Of a stretch of DNA of 46,317 nucleotides, positions 25,355-38,108 are shown piece after piece. The DNA comes from a virus. The notes beneath the pieces are model-generated. The model saw nothing but the letters and a program-made list of their open reading frames with translations. It searched no databases and had not been told where the DNA came from. A program made the translations under genes and the position numbers. Where the stretch lies: positions 1 through 46,317 of IMG/VR virus record IMGVR_UViG_3300000117_000049. One strand, 5' to 3'. Position 1 is the stretch's first letter; each line of letters opens with the position of its first letter.

Positions 25355-26686
25355 TTAGTTCTGATTCAGTTGTTCAGCACCCAAGCTTGGATCAGTGCTG
25401 GTTTTGGTTGCGGTAACAGTTGCAGTCAGTCTGTTATTAAAGATAGTATACATGACTTTTTGAACAAGGTAAGTGCCTGATCTTTTCTTATCTCTTACAC
25501 TTTCTATATTAGACTTCTCTTCTGGTGGAATATCTTTTTGAATATAAACATCCATTTGCTGGCCAAGTTTATCAAAACCGAATGAAATACCCGGAACAGT
25601 AACGTTAATAGGTTGCTGATCCATAAATGCATAGATTGCTCTAGACTTTGATTTGTTAAGATGTTTATCAACACTATCCTCTTCCAAGAAAGAGAATTTA
25701 TCGTCAAAGAGTTTGCGTGTCACTACCTGTGATGTATATGTATTTTGTCCTTCATGATAAGGTCTACCAGTGGTAAATGCTGGATCATAGTTGTATGTGG
25801 TAGAACCATTAGGTTTAGGCAATGTTTCTAATGGATCAGTGAGTTGATATTTGATTTCTTCTCCACCATATTCATAGGTATCAATGAAATTATAGTATCC
25901 ACTAAACACATTCCTTGCCATTGCCAACAGAGTGTCTTCATTATTATTGATAGTATAGTTGGTAATCTTTTTACTAAGAATGTCCCAGTCTTCTTCTGAA
26001 CCGGGAGATATATTCGATGTAGTGCCAAAGATATAAGGGTCATCGGCATTAAAGGCACCTTGCCCTAGAAGGTTAGAGATATCTTTGAGTTGTAGATTGT
26101 TATCATCCATAGTAGAATAAAAGTAGAATGGAATACCATTAGCATTAGTGCAACGAGCAGCCATCCAGTTTGCTGCTTCTAGGGGTGATGTAGTAAAAGG
26201 AAATACTACTCGCATATCAGACTGTGCTGGACTGCCTTCAGGTGTTACAGAGACGCCCAATTGCTCAGAACAAATTTGGTTACAAATAGCATCTGGTTTA
26301 CCTTCATACACTTTGCTGAACCGAGTGTTGTTACTTAACAATACATGCTCTTCAATAAGTTTTACAGAAAAACCAGATTTATCATCACCAACCTTTTGGC
26401 TGAAGTCAATACCAACACAGATGAATTCTTTGTTCATAATAGGGTTTGCTTCAGAGTCTAGCACAACAATAGTAACTCTTTCCTGCCCCTGAAAGTGAAC
26501 AGCATTAGATGCATTAGCAGAGTCAATAATAATAAGACGACCTGTAATATAAGGAAGTCCAATATTCTCATACATATTTACTTCTATAGTGATAGCAGAA
26601 ATATCTTTAGTGCCATATCTACTAGAACTTACAAAGACTCTAGTTTGTGCAACATATAGAGGATGATGACGACCTGTAGTACTCAT
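25355..26686 (-). CDS. 27: Baseplate hub protein, gp27-like
   Basis: The protein has 443 aa; T4 gp27 has 391. The N-terminal half carries strand patterns of hub proteins of the gp27/gpD fold (ISAITIEVNMYENIGLPYIT, GRLIIIDSANASNAVHFQGQ, ERVTIVVLD), and the mid-region VFPFTTSPLEAANWMAARCT is typical of tail hub domains. It lies directly before the gp5 OB-fold gene, where T4 gp27 would bind gp5 as a trimer, and after gp53. Its ATG overlaps the gp53 stop (TAATG). Name by position and pattern; exact orthology not proven. Confidence 0.65.
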   Translation of the reverse strand: MSTTGRHHPLYVAQTRVFVSSSRYGTKDISAITIEVNMYENIGLPYITGRLIIIDSANASNAVHFQGQERVTIVVLDSEANPIMNKEFICVGIDFSQKVGDDKSGFSVKLIEEHVLLSNNTRFSKVYEGKPDAICNQICSEQLGVSVTPEGSPAQSDMRVVFPFTTSPLEAANWMAARCTNANGIPFYFYSTMDDNNLQLKDISNLLGQGAFNADDPYIFGTTSNISPGSEEDWDILSKKITNYTINNNEDTLLAMARNVFSGYYNFIDTYEYGGEEIKYQLTDPLETLPKPNGSTTYNYDPAFTTGRPYHEGQNTYTSQVVTRKLFDDKFSFLEEDSVDKHLNKSKSRAIYAFMDQQPINVTVPGISFGFDKLGQQMDVYIQKDIPPEEKSNIESVRDKKRSGTYLVQKVMYTIFNNRLTATVTATKTSTDPSLGAEQLNQN

Positions 26687-28488
26687 TAGTAACTACTACC
26701 CCCAGATGAAACTGAGGTAGTAGCAGATGCAACAGCAGTATTAGTAGAAGTTGCAGTGAACGATGTATCACCCAAAGCATTACCAATAGTAGCAGAAACT
26801 TCCTCTGAAGATGTTTCGGACAAGATTCTTTTGAACTGTCTATCAAACTGAGCAACTACATTAGGTCTAAGAACTTTGATAGGTCTTACCTCTTCATTAT
26901 CTTTTTCATATCTTTCTAAGAATGTTACTGGTGTAATAGATGCTGGAACAATAGCATCGTAGTTTTCAGAAATATATGTTTCAAATTCATTTTGAACAAA
27001 TACAAATGCAGAGTTGTTTGCCAGAATACCATCTTCACCTGTTGTTTTAGTATCAAGGAAAGGTGATTCGCTGATAGAACTTCCTGTGAATCCAACATTC
27101 TTGTAGACTACAAAGTTTCTTTGATTTTCAATTAGAGAGTCGTTTTCTGTAATAGTATCAAATGCCAGAGGCTCATATACCCCACTTAGAACAGTAGTCA
27201 TATCAACATTCACGTTTGATCTAAACTCAAATGCCAGATACTGTGGAGTGGTTGTATCTGCGCCGTAAAGGTTGAGTTGGTTATCTACCAGAGTGAAGGT
27301 GTGGTATACAATACTAGTAGGTGCTGTGCCGCCAATTTCTGTGATAGAGTTTACAATAGCACCTAACTGAAGTGCAACAACATTTTGGAATTCTTCTGTA
27401 AATCCAAGAACGCCTCCTAAGAAGTTTGTTTGCCAGTCATCTACAGTATATTCATCATCATTGTTGAACTGTGCTTGTAGAAGACCACCAATAGTAAGTG
27501 CAGAACCACCGGGAATAACGTTGCCTAACACTGCCTGTGTTGTCACCTCATCTAAACTGAAGTCAGTAAAGATAGATGACAGGTTAGAGATTTTTATCTT
27601 GTCGATAGTAAAGTCAGTGGCCTCTGTCCCTGCTCCATCCCAAATAATCTCATACGATACTCTTTGAATAAACGGGGCATTAGGATTGATATCAATATAT
27701 TGACCACTAGCATCTTCATAGTGATGTTTGGCATTATATTCTTCTACAGATTTATCAGTTTTAATAACCTTGTCTACTTCATTCTCTGTAGTAAGAATAG
27801 ATTCTCCACTAATAAAATTTAAATTTGTCAATACTTTAGATGTAACTTCGTAGGTAAAACCAAAAGAAAGATTACTAATAGTTGCTTTTGTATCATTTTC
27901 TGTAGTAACAATACTAAAGTTCTCTATAGGAGTTTCACTACCACTAACAGTTACTACCCACTCACTAGTATTAACAAATGTTTCCCCTGAAGTTAGTTCA
28001 ATTTCTAACTCACTATTAGTATCAGCATCACCTGTAAATACTCTGTCAGTAGGAGTCTTCTCAACAATAATCTGACCTAGATCGGGTCTTCTTCTTAAGA
28101 CCTTTCCTGTAACACCGGATGTTTGTCCAGTAATATTACTGCCTACCAGAAACTGTTCAGAAATATTTGCTCTAGTTGTAAGAGTAGTATTAGGATACTC
28201 TTCTTTTGCCTTATCACTAATACGTGACCTAAGCAAAGGCCATCCTCTTCTCTTCAATTCATCATTTAATAGGTAGAACGTCCAGTAGTAGTCAGGAGAA
28301 CCATATAAGTCGTTAGAAACTTGATCAGGTCTGTCACCGTCTCTCAGGTTATATTCTTCATAAAAAGAAATATCATCCTTGACTCTATCAATCAAATCAA
28401 TATAGGCACCAATGTCTTGAACAGAAGTGTTTATTGCTTCATTGCCAAACTTATAATTGACTGTAGGATAGTTTGTGAAATATGACAT
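26686..28488 (-). CDS. 53: Baseplate wedge protein, gp53-like, extended
   Basis: The protein has 600 aa from the ATG at 28488 (MSYFTNYPTVNYKFGNEAIN), preferred to an upstream TTG because a GAGGGTGG sequence lies about 9 bases upstream. Residues about 25-85 (DIGAYIDLIDRVKDDISFYE, then DRPDQVSNDLYGSPDYYWTF, YLLND) match T4 gp53, whose counterpart reads RPEELANAIYGNPQLYWVLL. T4 gp53 is only 196 aa. The remaining 500 residues are beta-rich and ASN/THR-rich, with a conserved-looking RPIKVLRPNVVAQFDRQFKR near the end. It connects adjacent wedges in T4. It starts one base after the gp48-like stop. Confidence 0.8.
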   Translation of the reverse strand: MSYFTNYPTVNYKFGNEAINTSVQDIGAYIDLIDRVKDDISFYEEYNLRDGDRPDQVSNDLYGSPDYYWTFYLLNDELKRRGWPLLRSRISDKAKEEYPNTTLTTRANISEQFLVGSNITGQTSGVTGKVLRRRPDLGQIIVEKTPTDRVFTGDADTNSELEIELTSGETFVNTSEWVVTVSGSETPIENFSIVTTENDTKATISNLSFGFTYEVTSKVLTNLNFISGESILTTENEVDKVIKTDKSVEEYNAKHHYEDASGQYIDINPNAPFIQRVSYEIIWDGAGTEATDFTIDKIKISNLSSIFTDFSLDEVTTQAVLGNVIPGGSALTIGGLLQAQFNNDDEYTVDDWQTNFLGGVLGFTEEFQNVVALQLGAIVNSITEIGGTAPTSIVYHTFTLVDNQLNLYGADTTTPQYLAFEFRSNVNVDMTTVLSGVYEPLAFDTITENDSLIENQRNFVVYKNVGFTGSSISESPFLDTKTTGEDGILANNSAFVFVQNEFETYISENYDAIVPASITPVTFLERYEKDNEEVRPIKVLRPNVVAQFDRQFKRILSETSSEEVSATIGNALGDTSFTATSTNTAVASATTSVSSGGSSY

Positions 28489-28489
28489 A

Positions 28490-29323
28490 TTAATAACCAC
28501 CCTCAATATCTTTTTTATCTAATGCTCTTTCTTCTTGGAAAGACATAGTTAGTTGAACTTCGTTTACCTTACCATCTTCAAAAAATGAAGAAGACCTTGG
28601 ATTCAACACTGTGTTAACACTTGTTAAGTAACAGGGTAAAAGTTTGGGAGCTTGAGACATTTTTCTGCCATCATAAAAGAATGTGATATAAAACTTGCTA
28701 GGAAATTTATATCCATACCCCGCCAATATTTTTTCGGGGTATGCGTTTTCTCTAAAGAAGTCAATAATATTCTCAATTGATTGACTTTCTTGTTCACTCT
28801 GTGGACTCATTAGAAATGAAAATGAAAAGGTTCGAACTGCAACATCTCTAAACACAGAACGTTTATGTGGGTTTGCAGTAACTGCTGTGCCAGCAGCAAC
28901 GCCAGCTCCAATAGCACCATCTCCAATACCGGGCATACCTTGAACGCCTAAACTAAAAATTGCATTTGCCGCAGGGTTATTTCCAGTGAACATATTTTTT
29001 AAGTTCTGTGTGCTACCGACCGTATCTATCACAGAAGTTGCCGCCTCTCCTGCTTGCGCAGTTAAATCAGCAACTCTTTTTCCTATGTTTTGATTTACTA
29101 TCTGCCCAGCTAGATCAGAGTATCCACCAGCAGCTTTTCTTGCTAATTCTCCAGCAATACCTAAGTTAGCATTATCATATACCAATCCATCAGAAAAATT
29201 CACTGCTTCAGGGAAATACAAGTTTGCTATACCACCAAATGACCCACTAGACCCTTTAGCCATAAACCGCACTTGGGCTTTGTATTTTTCATCCTGTTCA
29301 ATAGGAAATTTTAATCCAGCCAT
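28490..29323 (-). CDS. 48: Tail-tube cap/baseplate protein, gp48-like
   Basis: The protein has 277 aa; T4 gp48 has 364. The N-terminus (FPIEQDEKYKAQVRFMAKG) is a tube-binding strand and the middle is glycine/alanine-rich (GDGAIGAGVAAGTAVTANPH). The C-terminal half, VRTFSFSFLMSPQSEQESQS, then IENIIDFFRENAYPE and VLNPRSSSFFEDGKVNEVQL, TMSFQEERAL, follows the gp48 arrangement of FTWDLTPRS, helix, and TLEITMRE. gp48 starts tube assembly on the hub. It is the first gene of the leftward structural run; a late promoter lies 35 bases upstream. Confidence 0.7.
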   Translation of the reverse strand: MAGLKFPIEQDEKYKAQVRFMAKGSSGSFGGIANLYFPEAVNFSDGLVYDNANLGIAGELARKAAGGYSDLAGQIVNQNIGKRVADLTAQAGEAATSVIDTVGSTQNLKNMFTGNNPAANAIFSLGVQGMPGIGDGAIGAGVAAGTAVTANPHKRSVFRDVAVRTFSFSFLMSPQSEQESQSIENIIDFFRENAYPEKILAGYGYKFPSKFYITFFYDGRKMSQAPKLLPCYLTSVNTVLNPRSSSFFEDGKVNEVQLTMSFQEERALDKKDIEGGY

Positions 29324-30400: not shown

Positions 30401-30898
30401 ATGGCAACCATTGAAGATTTAAAAGGGGCGTTTGCTGGAAAACCACCAGCACATCCAGATAGATACAAAATCATCATCCCCGGTCTGCGGCAAGGTGATG
30501 TGCTCTGCCAAGCTACAAACTTACCGGGTAGACAGATTACCACTACTGAAAGACGTATTGGTATGGTAACACAAAAGATGCCCTATGGATTTATCTTTGA
30601 TGATGTGAGTCTAACGTTCTTATTGGATGGAGAATACTCGGTCAAGAACTATTTTGAAGATTGGCACGAAAAGATTATTGGTTTTGAGACCTATGAACTA
30701 CAGTATAAAAACACCTACACCGAAAATATTGATATTCAACAACTAGATAAAGAAGATGAATCTGTGATTTATGGTGTTAAACTAAAAGGGGCTTTTCCAG
30801 TTACGATAAATCCTATCGAACTTGGTGATGGACTTGGGAACCAAATTACACAACTTAATGTGCAACTAGCATTCACTGATTGGGAACGCACTACTTAA
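30401..30898 (+). CDS. Tail-tube family protein (gp19/gp54-like)
   Basis: The protein has 165 aa, the length of T4 gp19 (163). The features DRYKIIIPGL, VLCQATNLPGRQITTTERRI, YGFIFDDVSLTFLLDGEYSV and YFEDWHEKIIGFETYELQYK are those of the tail-tube fold, with the long strand pair and the helix after it. gp54, the T4 tube initiator, shares this fold but is about twice as long. Next to gp26 and near gp48, this copy may be the tube initiator and not the major tube subunit, which in such phages normally sits beside the sheath gene, absent here. Confidence 0.75.
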   Translation: MATIEDLKGAFAGKPPAHPDRYKIIIPGLRQGDVLCQATNLPGRQITTTERRIGMVTQKMPYGFIFDDVSLTFLLDGEYSVKNYFEDWHEKIIGFETYELQYKNTYTENIDIQQLDKEDESVIYGVKLKGAFPVTINPIELGDGLGNQITQLNVQLAFTDWERTT

Positions 30899-30913: not shown

Positions 30914-31630
30914 ATGGCTTTACCTAAACTTAATGAGTCGATTAAATATACTACTAAAATTCCTTCTACTGGCAAACAAGTAAACTTCAGACCTTACCTT
31001 GTCAAAGAAGAAAAGATTCTAATGATTGCAATGGAATCTGAAGATAAAAAATCTGCACTAGATGCAATCTCCAATACCATTCAAGCTTGTGTTGATGAAG
31101 ACATTAATGTCTACAATCTTCCTGTATTTGATATTGAATATTTGTTTACACAGATTCGATCAAAGTCTGTAGGTGAAGTTTCTACTATCAATATTTCTTG
31201 TACAGAGTGTAAGAAACAATCTGAAGTATCTATTGACTTGAGCAAGATTAAGGTCAATGTTCCTAAGACTATCAAATCTATTAAGTTAGCAGATGATATG
31301 ACTTTGAAACTAAAGTATCCTGTTCTTGCAGAAGTAACAGATACTATGATTGACAATGAAAACAATAACGTATCTCAAACTCAGCAGATTTTTGACTTGC
31401 TTGCTATTTGTTTGGATAGTCTAGAAACAGCAGAAGAACAGATTAGTTTTGCAGATGAACCTAAAGAAGAAGTAATGGCATTCTTAGAATCATTTAATAA
31501 TAAACAGTTTGAGCAGGTTCGAAAGTTTGTAGAAGATTTACCGCAGATGAAACATGATGTAAAGTTCAAGTGTGAAAGTTGTGAGCATGACAATGAAGTT
31601 ACATTAAAAGGAACTAGTGATTTTTTTTAG
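30914..31630 (+). CDS. 26: Baseplate hub assembly protein gp26 with four-cysteine zinc site
   Basis: The protein has 238 aa; T4 gp26 has 208. It begins with KYTTKIPSTGKQVNFRPYLV and KEEKILMIAMES, a pattern of the T4-like baseplate hub family. Two CxxC pairs, C96/C99 (CTECKK) and C220/C223 (CESCEH), can form one zinc site. The gene ends in GAT TTT TTT TAG, and the frame one base back continues for 62 codons, so a -1 frameshift would extend the protein (see the slippery site). In T4 the neighbouring gene is 51, another hub-assembly factor. It precedes the tape-measure gene, as tail assembly chaperones do. Confidence 0.85.
   Translation: MALPKLNESIKYTTKIPSTGKQVNFRPYLVKEEKILMIAMESEDKKSALDAISNTIQACVDEDINVYNLPVFDIEYLFTQIRSKSVGEVSTINISCTECKKQSEVSIDLSKIKVNVPKTIKSIKLADDMTLKLKYPVLAEVTDTMIDNENNNVSQTQQIFDLLAICLDSLETAEEQISFADEPKEEVMAFLESFNNKQFEQVRKFVEDLPQMKHDVKFKCESCEHDNEVTLKGTSDFF
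31621..31628 (+). promoter_or_regulatory. Probable -1 ribosomal frameshift slippery site (T8)
   Basis: A run of eight T residues ends directly at the gp26 stop (TTT TTT TAG). Slipping back by one base after TTT TTT gives TTA GTA TGC and continues in an open frame to 31812. A weak hairpin (ATAGT with ACTAT, about 31647-31666) follows. Confidence 0.6.
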
Positions 31631-31812
31631 TATGCCTCTCACATGATAGTTTAGTAAATCACTATACTACAAACTTTCAGTTGATGCAACATCATAAATA
31701 CTCATTAACAGAACTAGAAAATATGATGCCTTGGGAACGTGAAATCTACCTTACTATGCTTATACAATGGTTGAAAGAAGAAGCAGAGAAACAAAAGCAA
31801 ATGAGACAATAA
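31627..31812 (+). CDS. 51: gp51-like C-terminal extension of gp26 (frameshift product)
   Basis: This is an open frame of 61 codons plus stop, in the -1 frame relative to gp26. It reads through VCLSHDSLVNHYTTNFQL to HHKYSLTELENMMPWEREIY, LTMLIQWLKEEAEKQKQM. The only in-frame ATG with room is at 31684 and it has no ribosome site, so the frame is most simply read as a fused tail made by slippage. It occupies the place of T4 gene 51, directly before the gp29-like tape measure (TAA then ATG). A free 42-aa protein from 31684 is the alternative. Confidence 0.6.
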   Translation, partial: LVCLSHDSLVNHYTTNFQLMQHHKYSLTELENMMPWEREIYLTMLIQWLKEEAEKQKQMRQ

Positions 31813-33315
31813 ATGGCTTTAACAGATGTTATTGGCAGACTCGCAGAAGTCAATGAAGAACAGTTAGTAGAGACTAAAGATATCCGAATTGAAATGGAAT
31901 CTCTAACTGACCGAGTGACAGAACTACTTGAGTTCAACAAACAGGACAGACTTGAACGTCTAGAAAGTTTGAGAGAGGGCGCTGGTGCTTTTGAGGCACC
32001 TAGTCTTACAGGTGGTGATGCTGGTAGTGGAGCATCTGGTGGCAGCGGTAAAGGTATTTTAGGTGGTCTTGCTAGTGCTTTTATGGGGTTCTTTGGTCTT
32101 AAGGCATTCTTAGGTAGCATTGCGGCATTTAGTGGAAAACTTCTGAAATTATTTAAAGGTGTTGGTAGGTTCCTCGGACCAATTGGTTTAATCATCACTG
32201 CTATCATTGCAACCTTTGCCACAGTAGAAGGGTTTATAAAAGGATATGAAGAAGGTGGACTCTTAGGTGGATTAGAAGGTGCAGTCAAAGGATTTGTAGA
32301 TTCTATCATTGCTGCTCCATTAGACTTACTTGCTGCAACTGTTAGTCATGTCGCTCGTATGATGGGATTTACTGAAACTGCTGATGCAATTAAAAACTTT
32401 AGTTTTTCTGAAATGTTCGACAAAATTATCACAGTTGTATTTAATGTAATTGAAAATACTGTAGATTTTGTCAAAGAACTTTTTGCTGATCCAAAAGCAA
32501 AGCTAGAAGAGTTATGGACTGGTCTTAAAAATCTTCTAAAAATTAACAACTTACTTGATCTTTTCTTTTTACCAACTAATCTTGCAGTAAGATGGATTCA
32601 AAGTATATTTAACTTTGGTGATCCCGATAAACCATTCAATTTATCTACTTTCATTGAAGGGATGATTGCAGATACTGTTGCACTCTTTACCAATATCTTT
32701 CAAGGGTTGATTAATAAACTTCGTTCTATTCCTATTCTGTCTGAGTTTTTTAAGAGCGACCAAGAGAAAGCACTTGACGCTGAAATAAAGGCATTGAACG
32801 AACAGCTTAAACAACAAAATAAAGCAGCTGATCAAATACAATTTAAGGCCACAAAGTCAGCACTTGGTCCGGGGTATAAATTGCAAAGAATGGGTGATCC
32901 TGACCGAATAGCTCCGGTAAGCGGGTTCTTTATGTCTGAAGAGAAAAAAGAAGCACTTAGAGATGAAAAAAGAGTAAAAGCAGCAAAGTTAAAGGATGAA
33001 TTAGCAACCTTTACTTCAGACCAAAAACTCATAGAGTTAGCCAAATCTGTAACGGAAGAAACAATTAGAAAAGTTGAAATCCAAAGACAGCAAATTCAAA
33101 CTGGTATGGCAGTCCAACAATTAAATGCTGCTGCTGGTGCTTCTGGTGGTGGAACTACAGTAGTCTATCAAACAACTAATAACGTTTCTGGTGGTGGAGG
33201 AGGCGGTGGAGCAGCAGCTGCTGTCAATACCAGTTCATCTTCTGTTGCACCATCTAACGATTATCAAGGCAGTATGAACCCAACATGGGTTATCGGTGGT
33301 GCTGCTGGTAGATAA
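31813..33315 (+). CDS. 29: Tape-measure/baseplate hub protein, gp29-like
   Basis: The protein has 500 aa; T4 gp29 has 590. The N-terminal 50 residues are helical with coiled-coil character (DIRIEMESLTDRVTELLEFN). Then come a glycine-rich linker, hydrophobic helices at about 78-105 and 118-140 (LGPIGLIITAIIATFATVEG), further amphipathic helices, a coiled coil near 315-335 and a glycine-rich tail (NNVSGGGGGGGAAAA). Membrane-like helices in a tail protein fit a tape measure that is ejected into the cell envelope. It directly follows the gp26/51 chaperone, the normal order. The ATG follows the previous stop without a gap and a strong ribosome site is lacking, so coupling is likely. Confidence 0.82.
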   Translation: MALTDVIGRLAEVNEEQLVETKDIRIEMESLTDRVTELLEFNKQDRLERLESLREGAGAFEAPSLTGGDAGSGASGGSGKGILGGLASAFMGFFGLKAFLGSIAAFSGKLLKLFKGVGRFLGPIGLIITAIIATFATVEGFIKGYEEGGLLGGLEGAVKGFVDSIIAAPLDLLAATVSHVARMMGFTETADAIKNFSFSEMFDKIITVVFNVIENTVDFVKELFADPKAKLEELWTGLKNLLKINNLLDLFFLPTNLAVRWIQSIFNFGDPDKPFNLSTFIEGMIADTVALFTNIFQGLINKLRSIPILSEFFKSDQEKALDAEIKALNEQLKQQNKAADQIQFKATKSALGPGYKLQRMGDPDRIAPVSGFFMSEEKKEALRDEKRVKAAKLKDELATFTSDQKLIELAKSVTEETIRKVEIQRQQIQTGMAVQQLNAAAGASGGGTTVVYQTTNNVSGGGGGGGAAAAVNTSSSSVAPSNDYQGSMNPTWVIGGAAGR

Positions 33316-35642: not shown

Positions 35643-36434
35643 TTAACTCTCCCTAAAAACTTTGTGTATATCCCTTAGCAAGTTCTTTGCATTATCGGGT
35701 TTACGTTGAAAAATATTACGACCTACAATCATGCCGTATCCACCTCCCTCTGCAATACGTTCTGCATAAAGCCTCATATGTTGAGAATCCGTGTATTCTC
35801 CACCAGAGAAGACTACTGGAATGCCACATGCTGCTTTAACAATGTTTACAACATCCATACTATTTGCTGGCATTTTGACCTTGATAACATCAGGTTCTAA
35901 CTGTGCAGCCATATATGCAGCATGCATAAGTGTTTTGTTTGTAGTCTCTTCGTAACCAAGGCCACGGGGATAGGACCAGAGAATAGACTTTACATTATCC
36001 GGTTTATGTTCTTGAACTTTACCAAAATAATTAATCATATCATCTTGCTTAGAAGACCCCGGATAGATTGTAAACCCTACTCCGCCCATGTTAGCAGCAT
36101 GACGAGAACTAGCATAGACTGCCTGTGAAGGTTCAAGGTCTTTGTTTAGATTATTACCATGATTCAGTTTCAAAATAACATCTTTGGAAAGATGCGGATA
36201 CTTTTTACAAAGTAGATTAGCAGTGCGCTTTGGTAGTGCTGTAGCACCTACTAGACCCTCATGTAGAAGTTCTGCAATATAATCTACCTGATAATCAATA
36301 TCCAGCATTTCTGGATGTGCAGTAGCAAAGAATGCATCTACTGGACCATGCTCTACTCCTTGGTCAATAGGAAGGATAATAGTATAGTTGCCCTTCTCAC
36401 CAAAACCTTCTTCACTTAAACGCTGGTGCTTCAT
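35643..36434 (-). CDS. fbaB: Class I fructose-bisphosphate aldolase (FbaB/DhnA type), auxiliary metabolic gene
   Basis: The protein has 263 aa from the ATG at 36434 (GAGG lies about 7 bases upstream; an upstream TTG is less likely). LPIDQGVEHGP (Asp24), VILKLNHGNNL (86-96), LWSYPRGLG (Tyr155), EPDVIKVKMP (Lys185/Lys187, the Schiff-base segment) and YGMIVGRNIFQRKP (233-246) are the DhnA-type aldolase signature, with the active-site positions present. It should split fructose 1,6-bisphosphate into dihydroxyacetone phosphate and glyceraldehyde 3-phosphate. The length matches short archaeal-type enzymes and not the 350-aa E. coli FbaB. It overlaps a 52-aa gene upstream. A related DhnA-family activity (for example an aromatic-pathway aldolase) cannot be excluded. 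Confidence 0.88.
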   Translation of the reverse strand: MKHQRLSEEGFGEKGNYTIILPIDQGVEHGPVDAFFATAHPEMLDIDYQVDYIAELLHEGLVGATALPKRTANLLCKKYPHLSKDVILKLNHGNNLNKDLEPSQAVYASSRHAANMGGVGFTIYPGSSKQDDMINYFGKVQEHKPDNVKSILWSYPRGLGYEETTNKTLMHAAYMAAQLEPDVIKVKMPANSMDVVNIVKAACGIPVVFSGGEYTDSQHMRLYAERIAEGGGYGMIVGRNIFQRKPDNAKNLLRDIHKVFRES

Positions 36435-36570
36435 TCTCAACCTCTAATTGTTTAATACGATGTTGGCAATATTCTTCCAACTCTTTTAAATGTTCGATAT
36501 CTTCATGGCGTAGGATAATCTCCATCGCCCGAACAAAGTCATTAATTTGTTTAATTTCAAAATCATCCAT
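36412..36570 (-). CDS. Small acidic helical protein, unknown
   Basis: A 52-aa frame reads MDDFEIKQINDFVRAMEIIL, then RHEDIEHLKELEEYCQHRIK and ends in EVENEAPAFK. It is all-helical with a likely coiled coil. It ends 22 bases inside the aldolase gene in another frame and follows the 81-aa gene by 3 bases. The frame fills the only gap in this operon and provides the ribosome site of the aldolase gene, which supports it being real. Confidence 0.65.
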   Translation of the reverse strand: MDDFEIKQINDFVRAMEIILRHEDIEHLKELEEYCQHRIKQLEVENEAPAFK

Positions 36571-37508: not shown

Positions 37509-38108
37509 ATGTTTTATATATACGCATATTTGCGCAAAGATGGCACACCTTACTATATCGGTAAGGGTAAAGGTAATAGAGCATACGATTCACACAAATG
37601 GTTGAATAAACCAAGATATAGAGATCGAATCGTGTTTATGGAGACCAACCTTAGTGAGTTGGGAGCTTTCGCCCTTGAGAGACGATATATCCGTTGGTAT
37701 GGACGCAAGGGAATAGATCAAAATGGAATCCTTCTGAATAGAGCGGAAGGCGGTGAAGGCAGTAGTGGATATAAAATGTCTGCTGAAAGGCGCAAACAGG
37801 TATCAGAACAGATGATGGGTAACAAGCACAACTTGGGTAAAACTCTCACACAAGAGCATAAGAATAAAATATCCACATCACTCAAAGACCGTGAGATAAC
37901 TTGGTGTGATAAAATATCCACATCACTCAAAGACCGAAAGATAACTTGGGGTGATAAAATATCAGAATCGCTCAAGGGTCGTAAGGGTCGTTCCCATACT
38001 AAAGAGCATATTGAGAATCTAAAGAAAAAGAAATGGTGGACAGACGGTGAAAGGAATGTTTTTCACCAAGACTGTCCACCGGGGTTTAGTAGAGGTAGAA
38101 CGCTTTAG
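37509..38108 (+). CDS. GIY-YIG homing endonuclease with NUMOD3-like repeats
   Basis: The protein has 199 aa. The GIY-YIG domain (1-65) reads FYIYAYLRKDGTPYYIGKGK, then GNRAYD (Arg24) and ALERRYIRWYG (Glu57), with the tyrosines, arginine and glutamate needed for cleavage. Residues 75-175 contain DNA-binding segments: SAERRKQVSEQMMGN, HKNKISTSLKDREITWCD and tandem copies, and TKEHIENLKKKK, like NUMOD3 modules. The end is KWWTDGERNVFHQDCPPGF. It is the only plus-strand gene in this region and is convergent with the DUF932 gene, as expected for an inserted mobile gene of the T4 seg type. Confidence 0.88.
   Translation: MFYIYAYLRKDGTPYYIGKGKGNRAYDSHKWLNKPRYRDRIVFMETNLSELGAFALERRYIRWYGRKGIDQNGILLNRAEGGEGSSGYKMSAERRKQVSEQMMGNKHNLGKTLTQEHKNKISTSLKDREITWCDKISTSLKDRKITWGDKISESLKGRKGRSHTKEHIENLKKKKWWTDGERNVFHQDCPPGFSRGRTL
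37866..37994 (+). repeat. Tandem 45-base in-frame repeat in the homing endonuclease
   Basis: Two near-identical 45-base units (37866-37910, 37911-37955) encode KISTSLKDREITWCD and KISTSLKDRKITWGD; a partial third (KISESLKGRKG) follows. They expand the DNA-binding region. Confidence 0.8.

Follow-up and report, generated by a model that had tools for sequence, protein, structure and literature searches.

Does gp26 of this phage end where its reading frame ends, or is it extended by a -1 frameshift into a tail resembling gp51? The question arises in the window (the whole stretch of DNA analyzed, 46,317 nucleotides of an IMG/VR virus record), which comes from an uncultured phage most closely related to marine ones. 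The 3' end of its gp26 gene (30914..31630, + strand; 238 aa in the 0 frame) reads GAT TTT TTT TAG, and the eight T followed by AG that the original prediction had described lie at 31621-31628, with AG next. Within that run is the slippery heptamer T_TTT_TTT (31621..31627, +), followed directly by the 0-frame stop TAG (31628..31630, +). We put at roughly 0.9 the probability that a single gene at this locus yields both forms of a G/GT-type tail assembly chaperone via programmed -1 frameshifting. A -1 shift joining gp26 to a gp51-like tail, which is what had been predicted, is the best-supported reading, given the conserved heptamer and frame and the match of the tail to PHROG_634.

The chaperone gene and its neighbors

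The 0-frame protein matches PF12322 (T4_baseplate) at 6.3e-60 over profile positions 3-218 of 219 and PHROG_150 at 6.9e-63. These matches, which extend over the family length, place it in the T4-type baseplate hub/chaperone family as the putative short tail assembly chaperone. Upstream lies a tail tube gene (30401..30898, +; PHROG_45 tail tube, 6.7e-32). Downstream, with its start adjoining the tail stop, is a candidate tape-measure gene (31813..33315, +; 500 aa), proposed from weak PHROG tape-measure matches (best 7e-4) and its position after the chaperone. A location between the tail tube and the (weakly matched) tape-measure gene is that of a G/GT-type chaperone. The structure model of the window gp26 had a pLDDT of 89.7. 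Its fold gave no significant match in a search against the PDB, where the best chaperone match was weak (HK97 2ob9; probability 0.54-0.57, E 0.8-1.5), and a sequence search of solved structures with gp26 and T4 gp51 as queries returned no hits.

Elsewhere in the window, positions 35643-36440 (- strand) encode, in this T4-like phage, a DeoC/LacD-family aldolase (PF01791, 6e-25) with a possible role in host sugar metabolism. A small open reading frame at 37509-38108 (+) looks by eye like a GIY-YIG homing endonuclease (a YIGKGKGNRA motif and repeated KISTSLKDR) and had no Pfam match. At 26686-28506 (-), a gp53-like baseplate wedge N terminus (PF11246, PHROG_232) is carried on a 606-residue protein that far exceeds the matched profiles, with about 500 residues beyond the match.

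The tail in the -1 frame

Positions 31627..31812 (+), in the -1 frame, encode 61 residues and a TAA stop, LVCLSHDSLVNHYTTNFQLMQHHKYSLTELENMMPWEREIYLTMLIQWLKEEAEKQKQMRQ, which appear to be the gp51-specific C-terminal extension. On its own, this tail gives an E value of 2.4e-28 against PHROG_634 ("baseplate hub assembly catalyst", or gp51), over positions 59-115 of that family. It also matches the C terminus of PHROG_150 at 1.7e-5, which means that some gp26 family members already hold the tail in one frame. A 62-codon frame running up to the tape-measure ATG had been proposed; the end point was correct (ATG at 31813 is the next base), and the length is 61 residues, 62 being reached only when the stop is counted. 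The proposal that the frame stays open back to the slip point also held: it opens just 7 bases 5' of the gp26 stop, barely upstream of the slip. Given that stops close the -1 frame at that point, the tail would be reachable only via a slip or an internal start. The openness of the frame is weak evidence, since a 61-codon open frame is expected by chance in about 1.3% of cases (P ~0.013) in random sequence of local composition. The strong evidence, judged from sequence comparison, is the PHROG_634 match together with the frame and T run conserved in relatives, which go well beyond chance. The slip product is predicted to be a 299-residue long form with the junction ...SDFF-LVCLSHDS..., and the predicted gp26-tail fusion peptide across the junction is SDFFLVCLSHDS.

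Conservation of the slip site among relatives

An alignment of relatives had been proposed as the way to look for a conserved T run and frame, and both were found. In 80/80 first-round relatives, all drawn from viral contigs, a T6 run preceded a tail in the -1 frame. When the set was enlarged with further contigs and annotated phages to 195 loci, 174 carried T_TTT_TTN in frame where gp26 ends, with the tail in the -1 frame; the remaining 21 were one short gp26 of T4 type and 20 loci from Ackermannviridae and similar phages that have xTT_TTY. The search seeds were weighted towards Kyanoviridae-type phages, and viral-contig relatives were few for KVP40-type and Rhizobium-type queries. At a clustering threshold of 85% nucleotide identity, 103 of the 174 loci were non-redundant. 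The heptamer was TTTTTTC in 112, TTTTTTT in 49, TTTTTTG in 10, and TTTTTTA in 3 of the 174 loci (77, 20, 4, and 2 of the 103). Tails in these relatives were 56-70 aa long, and the 0-frame stop came 0-1 codons past the slip in 101/103 non-redundant relatives.

Codon usage at the site was uniform. The first Phe codon at the slip was always TTT, although TTC accounts for about 31% of Phe codons in the rest of gp26, and without exception the codon before it ended in T, compared to 19-23% C-ending Asp/Asn/Ser codons elsewhere in the gene (naive P of 4e-17 and 3e-8, respectively, not corrected for relatedness).

Signals around the slip

A Shine-Dalgarno (SD)-like AAAAGGA (31606..31612, +) ends 8 nt 5' of the window heptamer and is probably an upstream stimulator, going by the SD core and codon bias in relatives. 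An SD core was present upstream of the heptamer in 98/103 non-redundant loci, and one of AAGG/GAGG type ended 8-10 nt 5' of the heptamer in 91/103. Much of this element is explained by the conserved [E/K/R]-G dipeptide encoded there: the synonymous-codon null had a mean of -5.4 kcal/mol, compared to -6.6 kcal/mol observed. Codon choice at the element is nevertheless biased towards SD beyond the amino acid constraint, with GAG and GAA in a ratio of 51:14 compared to 641:1361 elsewhere (P = 5e-14). Where GAA was used, the next Gly codon was GGG in 13/14 cases; GGG makes up about 5% of Gly codons elsewhere.

Downstream, RNA folding was analyzed in the window's own group and in an S-SM2-like cyanophage group. 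The folding z-score minimum of the scanned region fell directly after the slip in both groups, with a mean of -1.6. The cyanophage group has a hairpin starting 8-11 nt past the heptamer with a covariation score greater than those of all 500 shuffles. A candidate hairpin in the group of the window itself (alignment A1, columns 23-44) showed covariation no higher than that of shuffles, and RNAalifold returned no consensus structure for either group.

T4 encodes the short and long proteins separately

The original prediction was right that genes 26 and 51 are separate in T4, where they are neighbors on opposite strands. One refinement is that T4 gp51 is more than the tail and consists of a gp26-like domain followed by it; T4 gp51 matches PHROG_150 at 2.6e-84 over positions 13-280 of 282 and also matches PHROG_634. 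A profile of the frameshift fusion covered the short form in T4 gp26, with the match stopping at the slip point, and in T4 gp51 it crossed the junction into the tail. Conversely, when the window was searched with a profile of T4-type gp51, the matches passed from gp26 in its own frame to the tail in the -1 frame, in that order, and the predicted frameshifted window product has the same two parts, a gp26-like domain and then a PHROG_634 tail. Structure models of the window gp26 and a T4-type gp51 suggest a closely similar order of elements, with additional C-terminal helices in gp51.

By these comparisons, T4 gp26 and gp51 are paralogues, gp26 corresponding to the short form and gp51 to the whole long form in one frame, so that T4 devotes one gene to the short chaperone and a paralogous one to the long. 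PF12322 was present in two copies in 4/4 T4-type genomes and in one copy in 10/10 genomes with a slippery site or, in one Ackermannviridae phage, the weaker slip site. An in-frame T6 was found in 0/14 T4-type gp26 genes searched, one of which was cut before its 3' end. The C-terminal end of T4 gp26 is still ...GLKEFFELL, with the FF codons TTC TTT.

Alternative routes to the tail

We considered that the tail might be a separate small protein, a stand-alone gp51 made by reinitiation or from an internal start, as in most database annotations. Records do annotate distinct gp51 genes, an ATG lies within 8 codons of the slip in 64/103 non-redundant loci, and in KVP40, Rhizobium, Stenotrophomonas, and some Ackermannviridae loci an ATG in the -1 frame overlaps the gp26 stop (TAATG or TGATG). 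However, relatives with such overlapping starts keep T_TTT_TTN, except for the Ackermannviridae with only the weaker xTT_TTY, and no relatives were found that paired a gp51 start and ribosome site with the loss of the slippery run. With its spacing of 8-10 nt from the heptamer, the SD-like element lies about 20 nt or more upstream of the overlapping ATGs, and the tail of T4 gp51 is fused to a full gp26-like domain. The window tail contains no ATG, GTG, or TTG before codons 19-20 (TTG at 31681, ATG at 31684), yet across the window's group tail codons 1-18 (LSHDSLVNHY...) are conserved and third codon positions are the most variable. We rejected separate initiation as the main reading for the window given this lack of a start before codon 19 and the conservation of those codons, and we consider it improbable.

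Slippage by RNA polymerase on the T8 run, with an extra mRNA base joining the frames, is less probable still. The window run is long enough in principle, but in 125/174 relatives the heptamer has only T6 followed by C, G, or A. A T6 run is too short for efficient polymerase slippage. Moreover, the T run keeps a constant phase against the reading frame (T_TTT_TTN), and there is selection for an SD-like element directed at the ribosome. An error of sequencing or assembly in the T homopolymer, with a single continuous frame as the true gene, has almost no probability in our estimate. In its favor, errors are common in such runs, and the window, being an IMG/VR virus record, may be a fragment, yet the identical break occurs in contigs from other metagenomes, and we rejected this explanation since the frame relation is common to 174 relatives, finished genomes of cultured phages included.

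DISCUSSION

Programmed -1 frameshifting remains our preferred reading of this locus. The heptamer, the frame, and the upstream element are conserved, and the two-frame product is, by sequence, homologous to the single-frame T4 gp51; the slippage, its rate, and the chaperone role are inferred. Most ribosomes would terminate at the TAG at 31628 to give the 238-residue short form, gp26. A fraction would step back one base at T_TTT_TTT (31621-31627), with probable help from the SD-like AAAAGGA that ends 8 nt before the heptamer and possible help from RNA folding downstream, and would read 61 more codons in the -1 frame to give the 299-residue long form. The two forms may then act on the tape-measure protein of the adjacent gene in the manner of lambda gpG/gpGT. 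T4 and its nearest kin obtain the same two proteins from the paralogous genes 26 (short) and 51 (long).

In lambda, gpG is a short form, and a -1 slip near its 3' end yields the long form gpGT with a C-terminal extension, from a position between the tube and tape-measure genes. Lambda gpG/gpGT and its relatives are reportedly the subject of work by Xu, Hendrix, and Duda in 2004. The window shares the short form, the predicted slip and extension, and the gene position, a likeness of layout. It differs in its longer short form with paired Cys-x-x-Cys motifs, in its T_TTT_TTN heptamer, and in the 0-frame stop directly after the slip. In phage Adele (Vandenendeviridae/Andersonviridae), a -1 frameshift at a poly-T site lengthens the chaperone by the adjoining open frame, ahead of the tape measure (PMC12846349). 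Such a frameshift is described there and predicted here; the motif reported there is GTTTTT, and the phage families differ.

The original prediction also held that this locus would show the frameshift-chaperone logic in a T4-like phage; that reading is supported, and the logic is already in the literature on T4-like phages. A passage of the PRFect paper states that some T4-like phages carry short and long fused chaperone genes instead of frameshifting (PMC10885494), and one of the Adele paper mentions poly-T slippery sequences in T4-like chaperone genes (PMC12846349). Both cite Vladimirov, Gautam, and Davidson 2022 (Virology 566:9), a study, as those passages present it, of T4-like tail assembly chaperones. 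The phenomenon is thus apparently known in kind, given that these passages credit that study with the two-gene solution and the poly-T sites. They leave the genes unnamed, and in our reading gp26 and gp51 are the chaperones concerned. The window and T4-like proteins belong to the same family, the short form being gp26 and the long form gp51. The window long form would require a -1 frameshift, whereas that of T4 is a separate gene.

The frameshift arrangement was found in Kyanoviridae-type phages, phiM12, Pootjesviridae, and Menderavirus and, within Straboviridae, in KVP40 and one Chrysonvirus. The latter two differ from T4 in having the frameshift form in a single gene, with T_TTT_TTC as the site; their tail is listed as a hypothetical gene in KVP40 and carries no annotation in the Chrysonvirus. 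The Ackermannviridae loci (L192-L206 and L093) have only xTT_TTY at the site, and their homologous tail is likewise in the -1 frame, as read out for L093. In an unrooted gp26/gp51 tree, short T4-type, long T4-type, and frameshift proteins formed three separate sets, each on one side of a branch. This tree, which does not itself give the direction, is compatible with one duplication from an ancestor that used the frameshift. We see an even chance that the frameshift, maintained by a dual signal of the SD-like element together with a covarying hairpin in some groups, represents the ancestral state of the T4-superfamily chaperone, that the T4 lineage replaced it once by duplication into 26 (short) and 51 (long) and then lost the slippery run, and that KVP40-like and Chrysonvirus phages keep the frameshift.

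In summary, our analysis brings genes 26 and 51, long known for hub assembly in T4, within the general scheme of short and long tail assembly chaperones. Many records split gp26 and gp51 or omit gp51 where one joined long form would be expected. Where annotations of cyanophages and marine phages show gp51 as a tiny orphan gene, as many do, it probably represents the C-terminal portion of a long chaperone made by frameshifting.
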